From Actinomycetospora sp. TBRC 11914 (GTDB taxonomy: Bacteria; Actinomycetota; Actinomycetes; Mycobacteriales; Pseudonocardiaceae), in NCBI RefSeq assembly GCF_012933465.1, contig NZ_JABBND010000007.1, positions 62,001-126,000 on the forward strand: a stretch of 64,000 nt of DNA, in the 5' to 3' direction. The translations under genes and the position numbers were made by a program. Within the stretch, counting starts at the first letter, position 1, and every line of letters starts with the position of its first letter. The notes beneath the pieces are model-generated. The model did not search any database. It was given only the letters and a program-made list of their open reading frames with translations, and had not been told where the DNA came from. Of the stretch, positions 2,170 to 19,188 are shown in pieces.

Positions 2170-3981
2170 TCAGCCGGACGGCCAGGACGCGGCGAGCGCG
2201 GTCAGGACGGCCGCCGCCCGGTCCGGCGTGAGGCCGCTCGTGACGGGCACGGTGAGGACCGTCCGGCCGCCCGCGAGGGTCCGGCTGACACCGGTCGGGG
2301 GCGTCGGTGGGGTCGGGGTGCCGGTGACCGCGACGAGGACCGGCCCGCGCGGACCGCGGACCGTGCAGGTCGTCCGCCCCGTGCCCGGGCCGGCGGTGCT
2401 CACGGCGGTCAGCTGACCGGCCGCGAGCCCGGACGCCTCCGCGACCGCCGGGACGAGGGCGGCGCACCGGGTCGCTGCTGTGGTGGTGGGCGTCGTGGTG
2501 CTCGACGGCGGGTGCGTGGTGGAGGACGACGTGGTGGAGGACGCGGTCGTGCCCGACGGGGGCGGCGTCGCGGCGGACGCCGGGTGCGGCGGCCGGGGCG
2601 GCGGGGAGACGGCGCTCGAGGACGGAGTGCTCGCCGGCGCCGGGGCGACGGCGCCGGGCTTCGGAGCGCTCGCGGCGGGCGGCGCGGTCGACGAGCCGGC
2701 GGTCGACGAGCCGGCGGTCGACGAGCCGGTGGTCGACGAGGTGGTCGACGAGCCGGTGGTCGACGAGCCGGTGGTCAACGAGCCGGTGGTCGACGAGCCG
2801 GTGGTCGACGAGCTGGTGGTCGAGGACGGCAGGCCGGCGGGCGGGGCGAGCGCCGCGTGCGGAGCACCGACCGCGGTACCGGTCGTCGGGGTGGTCGAGG
2901 CGCTCAACGGGGTCGGCGCGGGGACCGGGCGCGGGGCGCCCGGCGCCGCGACGAGCGGCGGCGCCGCCGGCACCGGAGCGGGAGCCGCGACGGCGGCCGG
3001 GGCACCCGCCGTCGTCGGGACCCGAGGCGACGGCAGGGCCGCCAGCGTCACCGCGTCGTCACTGCTCGGGACCCCGCCCGACGCACCGCCCGAGCCCGGG
3101 CCCGGGGAGTCGGGCACCGGCAGCGCGCCCGAGGCGTAGGCGTCGGCCCAGCGGAGCACCGTCGCGACGTAGCCCTCGGAGTGGTTGTAGCGGAACACCG
3201 CGTCGTGGCGGGCGGCCGCCTGCGCGAGGTCGCCGCCGCCGGAGCAGAGGTGGCGGGCCGTGGCGAGGCCGGCGTCGTAGACGTTGTCGGGGTCCGCGCG
3301 GCCGTCCCCGTTGCCGTCGGCGCCGTAGACCCGCCAGCTCGACGGGATGAACTGGGTGGGGCCGACGGCGCGATCCCAGGTGGCGTCGTGGTCGAGGGCG
3401 CCGCCGTCGGTGTCGCGGATCGCCGCGTTGCCGCCGGTGCCGGTGAGCTGCGGGCCGAGGATCGGCCGGCGGGTGGTGCCGTCGGCGTCCACGGCCCCGC
3501 CGGAGGCGTGCCCGGACTCGACCTTGCCGATCCCGGCGACGAGCGGCCAGGTGAGCCGGCAGCCGGGGGCGTCGCGGTCCGTCGTCGTCGCCGCCGCGCG
3601 GTAGGCCGCGAGCACGGTCTCCGGGATGCCGAGACCCGAGCCCGTCGCGGTCCCCGGGAGCGGGGCGTCCTGGAGGCCGGCGTCGGGAAGGCCCGGGAGG
3701 GGCGCGACGCCCGCGTCCGGCAGCCGCCCGGTGGCTCCCGTGGGGCTCGTGTCGGGCGGCGGGAGGGCGGTCGCGGCGGTCACGGGCGCCGGGGGCCCGG
3801 CGGCGCCCAGGCCGGCCAGTAGCACCAGCACGCCGAGCGCGCACACGACGAGCGGCACCCGGCGACGGCGGGGCGGCCGGGGCGCGACGCGGTGGGCGGC
3901 CGGCCGCGGCGCACCCGGCCGGGCGGCCGTCGGCCCCGTCCACGCCGACCCGCGTGGCGGCTGGCGGTCCTCGTCGGGCAC
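2170..3981 (-). CDS. Secreted lytic murein transglycosylase with Ser/Thr-rich linker
   Basis: Probable cell-wall hydrolase acting on peptidoglycan outside the membrane. From GTG 3981 (GGGGGAG upstream) the protein has about 603 residues: a short basic cytoplasmic stretch, one hydrophobic segment (VPLVVCALGVLVLLAGLG) acting as anchor or signal, and an SLT_2/MltB-like domain near residues 110-270. In that domain GIGKVESGHA carries the likely catalytic Glu, AVGPTQFIPSSW and DNVYDAGLATARHLC are typical motifs, and GADGNGDGRADPDN resembles a calcium-binding loop. A long low-complexity region of Thr/Ser/Gly/Pro follows (about 270-510), probably a wall-spanning linker, then a small C-terminal domain of unknown function with two Cys. 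ATG 4017 is an alternative start. Part of the linker is a 15-bp DNA tandem repeat. Confidence 0.8.
   Translation of the reverse strand: MPDEDRQPPRGSAWTGPTAARPGAPRPAAHRVAPRPPRRRRVPLVVCALGVLVLLAGLGAAGPPAPVTAATALPPPDTSPTGATGRLPDAGVAPLPGLPDAGLQDAPLPGTATGSGLGIPETVLAAYRAAATTTDRDAPGCRLTWPLVAGIGKVESGHASGGAVDADGTTRRPILGPQLTGTGGNAAIRDTDGGALDHDATWDRAVGPTQFIPSSWRVYGADGNGDGRADPDNVYDAGLATARHLCSGGGDLAQAAARHDAVFRYNHSEGYVATVLRWADAYASGALPVPDSPGPGSGGASGGVPSSDDAVTLAALPSPRVPTTAGAPAAVAAPAPVPAAPPLVAAPGAPRPVPAPTPLSASTTPTTGTAVGAPHAALAPPAGLPSSTTSSSTTGSSTTGSLTTGSSTTGSSTTSSTTGSSTAGSSTAGSSTAPPAASAPKPGAVAPAPASTPSSSAVSPPPRPPHPASAATPPPSGTTASSTTSSSTTHPPSSTTTPTTTAATRCAALVPAVAEASGLAAGQLTAVSTAGPGTGRTTCTVRGPRGPVLVAVTGTPTPPTPPTGVSRTLAGGRTVLTVPVTSGLTPDRAAAVLTALAASWPSG
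2687..2829. repeat. 15-bp coding tandem repeat in transglycosylase linker
   Basis: About nine copies of GTCGACGAGCCGGTG (plus-strand reading) with small changes and one shorter spacing. On the coding strand they encode repeated S-S-T-T-G / S-S-T-A-G units. Such arrays can change copy number by slippage, so linker length may vary between strains. Confidence 0.85.
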
Positions 3982-4133
3982 GGCGTCGTCTCCCCCACCT
4001 ACGTCGCCCGGACGCATCCCCCGCGGCCCGGTTCCCGGGGATCGTCGTGCGCCGGGGCCGGGGCGCTACCCGGCGTCACCCGACCGGGGACCTCCGTGGC
4101 GAAGTCGTGACCTCGCCGTCGCCGGGGCGTGGC

Positions 4134-4511
4134 TCAGCGACGCGGGAGGCGGCCGGGGCGGGGCCACAGCCGGTGGGTGACGACGGCGAGGGCGACGGCC
4201 GGGCCGAGGGTGCGCGAGTCGGTGGAGGCGGTGGGGGCGTCGCCGACGGCGAACCAGTGAGCGGCAGCGTCGTCGGCAGCGTCGTCGTCGTCGGGGAAGC
4301 GCAGCGCGAGCCGCTTCACCGAGAGCTGGTCGGGCCGCGCCGGCCAGCGCACGAGGGCCACCGCCCCGTCGCGCGGGCGCAGGCCCGGCACGGCGAGCAC
4401 GACGTCGCCGTCGTGCAGCGTCGGGACCATGGAGCCGCCCCGCACGACGACCCGCCGCGGTACCCGGCCCAGCCCGTGCGGAAACCCGGCCCGCCGCCGT
4501 CCGAGGCGCAT
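4134..4511 (-). CDS. sodX: Nickel superoxide dismutase maturation protease (S26-like)
   Basis: Signal-peptidase-like Ser/Lys protease expected to cut the leader of nickel superoxide dismutase and free its N-terminal His. The 125-residue protein has GGSMVPTLHDGDVVLA with the presumed nucleophile Ser, and VKRLALRF with the likely general-base Lys, then GDAPTASTDSR close to the S26 box with Asp/Ser. There is no clear transmembrane anchor, unlike standard signal peptidase I. ATG 4511 is preferred over a longer frame because GGGAGGG sits about 8 bases upstream. It is divergent from sodN with 125 bases between them, and this neighbourhood is the main support for the specific role. Other S26/S24-like functions are less likely. 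Confidence 0.83.
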   Translation of the reverse strand: MRLGRRRAGFPHGLGRVPRRVVVRGGSMVPTLHDGDVVLAVPGLRPRDGAVALVRWPARPDQLSVKRLALRFPDDDDAADDAAAHWFAVGDAPTASTDSRTLGPAVALAVVTHRLWPRPGRLPRR

Positions 4512-17801: not shown

Positions 17802-17919
17802 CGAGTGGACCACGAGGGTCACCGTGGCAGCCGTGGGAGTCCACTCGACGGCGGCGGCCCGCCAGGTGCCCGCCGAGTGGACCCTCAGCGTCTCCGCGGA
17901 AGCCATGGGAGTCCACTCG
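17802..17919. repeat. Two copies of a 46-bp inverted-repeat element, 72 bp apart
   Basis: Copies at 17802-17847 and 17874-17919 each have perfect 9-bp arms CGAGTGGAC / GTCCACTCG around 28 bases; the interiors share GCNGTGGCAGCC-like and (C/A)TGGGA ends. They fill the 206-bp space between the divergent kinase and photolyase-like genes, so they may be operators for one or both promoters. Confidence 0.8.
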
Positions 17920-17964: not shown

Positions 17965-19188
17965 GTGCTCCTCCCCGTGCCCGACCCCGGTCCCGACGCT
18001 GCCGTCGCCTTCGTGCGCGAGCACCTCGGCGACCTGGCCTGCGACACCCCCGCCGCCTCGCCGTCGTTCCGCGGCGGGCAGACCGCCGCCGACGAGGCCC
18101 TCGCCGCCCTCGACGTGACGGACTACGCCCGCCGTCGCAACGAGGTCTGGCCACCCGAGCGCCGCGGGGCCTCGCGGATGTCGCCCTGGATCCGCCACGG
18201 GCTGCTGTCGCTGCCCGCGCTGTGGGAGCACGTCGCCGACGCCCCGCCGCGCGACCGCACCAAGTACCGCGACGAGCTCACCTGGCAGGAGTACGCCCGC
18301 CACGTCTACGCGCGGGTGGGCCGGCGGCTCGGCGACGACCTCCGCGCGCACCCCCCGCGACCGCCGTCGACCTGGGATGACCCGTGGCCCCGCGACATGG
18401 CCTGCATGGACGCCACGGTCTCGGAGCTGCACGAGGACGGCTGGCTGGTCAACCAGACCCGGATGTGGCTCGCGAGCCAGTGGACGGTGCGCGCCGGCGC
18501 CCGGTGGCGCGACGGCGAGGACGCGTTCTTCACCCACCTGCTCGACGGCTCCCGGGCGGCGAACCGGCTCGGGTGGCAGTGGACGGTCGGGTCGGGGACG
18601 GGCAAGGCGTACGGGTTCTCGCGGCACCAGGTCGAGAAGCGGGCGCCGAAGCTGTGCGCCGGGTGCGTGCTCAACGCCGCCTGCCCGGTGCAGGACTGGC
18701 CGCCCGAACAGCGGACCGAGCGCATCGAGCCGCCGGCCGCCCTGAGGGGTGACGACGACGTCGAGGCGACCGCCGGGCCGTCGTCGGGACCTCCTCCCGG
18801 CGAGGTCGACGGGGTGTGGCTCACCGCCGAGTCGCTCGGCGACGACGACCCGGCGCTGGCCGCCCACCCGGACGCCCCGGCGGTGTTCGTGTTCGACGAG
18901 CCACTGCTGCGCCGGCTGCGGCTCTCCGGCAAGCGGCTGGTCTTCCTCACCGAGACCCTGGCCGACCTGGCGACCCGGCGTCCGGTGCAGCTGCACCGCG
19001 GGCGGGTCGCCGAGGAGCTGGGTGACCGGCGGCTGGCGGTCACGTTCGCGCCGGTCCCCGGGTTCCGGCGGCTCGCGACCCGGCTGGAGCCCGCCGAGGT
19101 GCACCCGTGGCCGTGGCTCTTCCGACCCCGCGGCGGGCGGCTGCAGAGCTGGACGGCCTGGCGCAAGAGGTGGGCTTCGCCCACGTGA
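17965..19188 (+). CDS. Photolyase/cryptochrome-like protein with swapped domain order
   Basis: A 407-residue flavoprotein candidate. Residues about 1-250 resemble the photolyase FAD domain: RGGQTAADEALAAL, SRMSPWIRHGLLS, TWQEYARHVYA, EDGWLVNQTRMWLASQ, GEDAFFTHLLDGSRAANRLG and WQWTVGSGTG. Four Cys at 147, 231, 234 and 240 (C-x83-C-x2-C-x5-C) resemble the spacing that binds 4Fe-4S in bacterial FeS photolyases such as PhrB. Residues about 275-390 (VWLTAESLGDDDPALAAH, AVFVFDEPLL, KRLVFLTETLADLA, GRLQSWTAWRK) resemble the alpha/beta antenna domain, which normally comes first. Repair activity, chromophore and cluster are inferred. GTG 17965 is preferred because upstream sequence is repeat DNA; a longer frame exists. 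Confidence 0.72.
   Translation: MLLPVPDPGPDAAVAFVREHLGDLACDTPAASPSFRGGQTAADEALAALDVTDYARRRNEVWPPERRGASRMSPWIRHGLLSLPALWEHVADAPPRDRTKYRDELTWQEYARHVYARVGRRLGDDLRAHPPRPPSTWDDPWPRDMACMDATVSELHEDGWLVNQTRMWLASQWTVRAGARWRDGEDAFFTHLLDGSRAANRLGWQWTVGSGTGKAYGFSRHQVEKRAPKLCAGCVLNAACPVQDWPPEQRTERIEPPAALRGDDDVEATAGPSSGPPPGEVDGVWLTAESLGDDDPALAAHPDAPAVFVFDEPLLRRLRLSGKRLVFLTETLADLATRRPVQLHRGRVAEELGDRRLAVTFAPVPGFRRLATRLEPAEVHPWPWLFRPRGGRLQSWTAWRKRWASPT

Follow-up and report, generated by a model that had tools for sequence, protein, structure and literature searches.

The gene analysed here, located in a 64,000-nucleotide stretch of the Actinomycetospora sp. TBRC 11914 genome (hereafter the window), very probably encodes an iron-sulfur photolyase belonging to the SPL/NewPHL group, with its two domains in reverse order, the FAD domain first and a homologue of the antenna domain last, and acting by the mechanism proposed below. 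The family, the domain order, the antenna homology, the cysteine quartet and the catalytic residues are established at the level of sequence, and each of them is taken up in turn.

The open reading frame begins with GTG, ends in TGA and specifies a product of 407 amino acids (Table 1). A scan of genome contigs gave 45 loci, 41 of them full-length relatives and four (L039, L040, L042 and L044) left out as partial or frame-broken; alignment A1 has 42 rows, the window protein included, with identities to that protein of 47–89%, and the 41 full-length relatives so aligned rule out a chance or out-of-frame ORF. In L040 and L042, both from metagenome-assembled genomes, the relative is broken across frames, through either sequencing error or a real split. 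The frame of the gene could extend upstream to an in-frame GTG at 17824, a longer start that seems unlikely; in two relatives (L009 and L026, the latter labelled Acidobacteria and counted here in the actinobacterial-type group) an upstream in-frame stop or the contig edge leaves 1 residue possible before the equivalent of residue 1, and it is this that supports the GTG at 17965 and rules out an in-frame N-terminal antenna domain upstream.

Just 5′ of the gene lies a tandem pair of 44-bp palindromic elements (17803–17846 and 17875–17918) of the form GAGTGGAC-N28-GTCCACTC, for which the chance expectation in the window is 0.01. The source genome holds 16 such sites, all those listed being 44 bp long and four being tandem pairs, and the reversed control pattern gave 0 sites in the same genome. 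In form the element resembles the intergenic hairpin repeats of REP-like type.

Table 1. Coordinates in the window of the gene, its domains and the residues discussed in the text.
Feature	Coordinates	Strand	Basis
Probable reverse-order Fe-S photolyase gene (SPL/NewPHL type)	17965..19188	+	Open frame and PF03441 match
N-terminal FAD/catalytic domain, residues 1–252	17965..18720	+	PF03441 and hhalign
Cys147 codon, first putative cluster Cys	18403..18405	+	Invariant, 61/61; aligns to FeS-BCP Cys
Trp181, outer Trp of inferred electron-transfer dyad	18505..18507	+	Aligns to 1tez chain Trp366; 61/61 rows
Trp204, FAD-proximal Trp of inferred dyad	18574..18576	+	Aligns to 1tez chain Trp389; 61/61 rows
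Cys231, Cys234, Cys240 (C-x2-C-x5-C), other three putative cluster Cys	18655..18684	+	Invariant, 61/61; align to FeS-BCP Cys
C-terminal alpha/beta domain, antenna-domain homologue, residues 283–399	18811..19161	+	hhalign to class I antenna domains

The preliminary description had placed the FAD domain first, and this was borne out. Pfam recognises one family in the window protein, FAD_binding_7 (PF03441), at residues 147–216 (E 2.2e-12), and class I photolyase structures, 1tez and 1owl among them, match residues 38–212, the structure matches starting at residue 38 or later; in the same protein Pfam gives no PF00875 antenna domain ahead of the FAD domain and, at E up to 1, no PF04244 domain. 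When the FAD domains of 65 relatives were compared by hhalign, they lay nearer to the class I CPD photolyases (E 6.6e-25) than to 20 FeS-BCPs (E 9.2e-10). Chain residues Glu282, Trp285, Asn348 and Met352 of 1tez align with Glu104, Trp107, Asn163 and Met167 of the window protein, and Asn385, Trp389, Trp391 and Trp366 with Asn200, Trp204, Trp206 and Trp181; the literature numbering of 1tez is presumably the chain index plus 1, chain Trp366 being Trp367 and chain Trp389 being Trp390.

A protein with such a FAD domain might be a light sensor of the cryptochrome type, which binds FAD and a cluster and repairs no DNA: the redox Trp pair is conserved, and sensors and enzymes are inseparable by sequence alone. 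However, Glu104, Trp107, Asn163, Met167 and Trp206, at positions to which we assign the role of contacting the dimer, are each kept, as is Asn200 and the flavin-side Trp204, in 57–61 of 61 rows, and a sensor is very unlikely. For the photolyase reading, the usual triad has lost its third Trp, Pro131 standing at that position in the 1tez alignment, which fits the Trp dyad reported for the NewPHL of Dinoroseobacter shibae (PMC8948257). Counting against it are the FAD contacts, since among the 13 positions given in the available text of PMC9426592 eight are kept in the window protein and five are changed.

The quartet of cysteines was the second point of the preliminary description, which had compared its spacing to that of 4Fe-4S photolyases such as PhrB, and the quartet was borne out. 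Cys147, Cys231, Cys234 and Cys240 are present in 42/42 rows of alignment A1, in 61/61 actinobacterial-type rows and in 4/4 Deinococcus rows, and in the profile alignment of the 65 FAD domains all four coincide in position with the cluster cysteines of the 20 FeS-BCPs, which bind a 4Fe-4S cluster, as established for PhrB (PMC9426592). To judge by these alignments, the window protein has retained a cysteine quartet that could carry an iron-sulfur cluster. In PhrB the last step of the spacing is 13 (441 to 454), in the window protein 6; a final step of 6 is the one published for the reverse-order Phr4 of RS9916 (C169/C254/C257/C263), so that, Phr4 and Phr6 being compared by their published description, the spacing is 85/3/6 there and 84/3/6 in the window protein (PMC9426592). 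The complete quartet is found in 0/6 alphaproteobacterial and 0/2 Persicobacter rows, one alphaproteobacterial row having a Cys at the first position.

In the profile alignment Asn163-Gln164 sits where the FeS-BCPs carry His-His, a pair whose functional role we take to be tied to the choice between 6-4 and CPD substrates. Two features, a FAD domain closest to class I and Asn163-Gln164 in place of His-His, favour CPD over 6-4, and the function would most likely be light-dependent CPD repair, perhaps in the context of single-stranded DNA. The same architecture could instead repair 6-4 photoproducts, as has been argued for Phr4/Phr5 and Phr6 from their Fe-S cysteines (PMC9426592); all four cysteines of the window protein do align with FeS-BCPs, many of which are 6-4 photolyases, and the effects of phr4 are described for UV-C rather than UV-B in the available text of that paper, so that both the proposal and the phenotypes count against the CPD reading. 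Beyond the two features of the FAD domain just named, 6-4 repair is opposed by the summary of SPLs as CPD repair enzymes (PMC9649867) and by the source genome, which already has an FeS-BCP homologue, and we consider it rather unlikely. The photolyase-family genes of that genome are three: a class I gene on contig C8, the only match in a PF00875 search, the FeS-BCP homologue on contig C1, matched by PF04244, and the reverse-order gene on contig C61.

That an antenna-like domain comes last was a further part of the preliminary description, which had named the lack of any antenna similarity in the C-terminal part as its refutation; this was checked by profile comparison, and the similarity was found. 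Residues 266–407 taken alone (the last 142) have no Pfam match at E up to 1 and none in NCBIfam, so the resemblance is invisible to curated models from the window sequence alone. Conservation among the relatives runs on, nevertheless, through residues 283–400. Profiles of the C-terminal domain were set by hhalign against 30 antenna domains of class I photolyases; the 27 controls comprised profiles of Usp, of response regulators and of class I FAD domains, three reversed alignments and 21 unidentified ORF clusters, some of which may be out of frame and from which the two largest of 23 were omitted. Taken as single comparisons, 61 actinobacterial-type domains matched the class I antenna at E 1.6e-6 (probability 90; best control 0.039), four Deinococcus domains at E 5.3e-11 (probability 97; best control 0.0064), the two groups pooled at E 3.2e-8 (best control 0.061) and all rows at E 2.6e-8 (best control 0.093). 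Six alphaproteobacterial domains alone gave E 0.22 against the antenna, with controls at least as good, which is no match. By the same method class I antenna domains reach E 1.7e-4 against Usp, and the relation between class I and FeS-BCP antenna domains is missed (E 0.04). PF00875 itself matches two of nine relative proteins scanned (E 0.00023, at residues 25–138 of a separate Deinococcus ORF, and E 0.00072), over 96–114 residues, both matches falling below the curated Pfam cut-off of 26.6 bits.

A domain with these scores could be an unrelated Rossmann-like fold that was fused later, its likeness to the antenna being convergence of fold. The want of a PF00875 match in the window protein alone and of an antenna match in the alphaproteobacterial domains would agree with this, and the weak match between antenna and Usp profiles means that kinship of fold alone can score; however, the C-terminal domain meets Usp and response regulators at E 0.039–0.1 where listed in the actinobacterial, Deinococcus, pooled and all-row comparisons, against 5.3e-11 to 1.6e-6 for the antenna, and two relatives match PF00875 over 96–114 residues, and convergence is highly improbable. 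The actinobacterial domain is about 7 residues shorter than that of Deinococcus, between two strands. The PDB copy searched held no entry convincingly matching the domain, and for that reason its structure would be new. D. shibae and M. mesophilicum, whose NewPHLs are cited in the literature, are alphaproteobacterial by taxonomy, and since that group, as represented by the six relatives here, has neither the Cys quartet nor, taken alone, an antenna match, it counts against our preferred explanation.

In the mechanism that we infer, the N-terminal helical domain would hold FAD together with a 4Fe-4S cluster on Cys147, Cys231, Cys234 and Cys240. A pyrimidine dimer would be flipped into the pocket, up to the flavin; blue light would excite FADH−, and the electron donated would split the dimer, the oxidised flavin then being re-reduced by way of Trp204 and Trp181. 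The C-terminal alpha/beta domain would be a relocated and shortened antenna homologue packed on the FAD domain, and it would more probably serve that domain as a lid or a structural partner than work as an antenna. Occupancy by FAD and the cluster, the role as a lid, the path of the electron and the substrate are the parts of this scheme that go beyond the alignments and may be read as predictions.

The distribution of the relatives confirms that reverse-order photolyases of the cluster type occur, patchily, well outside cyanobacteria, the protein being present in 20 of the 296 sampled genomes of the phylum, with the window's own counted. Plasmid records gave 130 matches, three of which, in Deinococcus, cover at least 80% of the query, and 12 plasmid stretches were examined (four Deinococcus, six alphaproteobacterial and two Persicobacter). 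On a plasmid of Deinococcus sp. QL22 (NZ_CP097153.1; stretch L080) the two domains are two genes, the FAD domain at 2908–3681 and the alpha/beta domain at 3678–4199 of that stretch, which overlap by four bases, the second being annotated as a hypothetical protein; on the three other Deinococcus plasmids both domains are in one gene. On four alphaproteobacterial plasmids (L081, L082, L087 and L088) a gene for an AarF/ABC1/UbiB kinase adjoins the reverse-order photolyase gene or lies at most three genes from it. A viral or phage source received no useful support, as viral contigs gave 10 pattern matches and 0 relatives, and phage records eight matches, none covering 80% of the query.

As regards the origin of the reversed order, we suggest, tentatively and as a possibility that falls somewhat short of even, that the antenna domain has been a movable part: the reversed order, with a cluster, would extend to both Actinomycetota and Deinococcota; in one Deinococcus the parts are two overlapping genes, apart from the cyanobacterial split of phr4/phr5; the actinobacterial domain would have shrunk from antenna to lid; and the SPLs would be rearranged photolyases, not the primitive one-domain ancestors implied by the word short in their name. 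The reverse order may have come about by circular permutation or by separate fusion of two domain genes, or it may be ancestral. A tree built from 45 FAD domains united class I with the alphaproteobacterial rows (92/77, under a warning of long branches) and attached the split Deinococcus row to its three counterparts at only 51/5. The C-terminal domain is now tied, with controls, to the ordinary antenna domain, a link that bears on whether SPLs are ancestral one-domain photolyases, as proposed, or rearranged two-domain ones. For the Fe-S reverse-order form the assignments to CPD and to 6-4 repair clash, and this is directly testable.

Among known systems, class I CPD photolyases (1tez, 1owl) share with the window protein the FAD domain and the catalytic residues, and their antenna is homologous to its C-terminal domain, but they have the classical domain order and a Trp triad, and 1tez has no Cys quartet in the stretch aligned at Cys147. 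The FeS-BCP/PhrB type (PF04244) shares the four cluster cysteines in register, but its antenna domain is N-terminal, His-His takes the place of the window protein's Asn-Gln, and the overall similarity is weaker than that of class I. Like the SPLs, the window protein has no N-terminal alpha/beta domain, and a Rhodococcus fascians member of the SPLs reportedly has FAD, FeS and CPD repair. The SPLs (Xu 2021) are summarised as lacking the N-terminal domain, repairing CPDs and possibly carrying an FeS cluster (PMC9649867), and the descriptions of them as short, with no N-terminal alpha/beta domain, are silent, in the sections available, on any antenna homologue at the C terminus (PMC9649867, PMC9178010, PMC9498864). 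The NewPHLs/SPLs of Emmerich 2020 are credited with an inverted domain topology and with CPD repair in single-stranded DNA (cited in PMC13274461), and a NewPHL has, like the window protein, an N-terminal FAD domain and a C-terminal short Z-domain (PMC13274461, PMC9426592), as does Phr7, a relative of the Emmerich 2020 NewPHL in which an N-terminal FAD domain is followed by a Z-domain at the C terminus (PMC9426592).

The preliminary description had implied that a reverse-order Fe-S photolyase would be novel, an idea that has to be given up, as the architecture and the Fe-S cysteines are already in print (PMC9426592); among the papers listed in a literature search joining photolyase to permutation terms, none had circular permutation or circularly permuted in its title or abstract. 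The architecture is already known and the window protein is an additional case; what is added here is the occurrence of the two domains as separate genes on a plasmid of Deinococcus, together with the measured antenna homology of the actinobacterial C-terminal domain, either of which Emmerich 2020 or Xu 2021 may already contain. The same design is described from picocyanobacteria, where it is split in Phr4/Phr5, in most strains by a short G-C stretch and a change of frame, and fused in Phr6, with nearly identical Cys spacing: these proteins of marine Synechococcus and Cyanobium have, like that of the window, the FAD domain first, the alpha/beta domain last and four Fe-S cysteines (PMC9426592).
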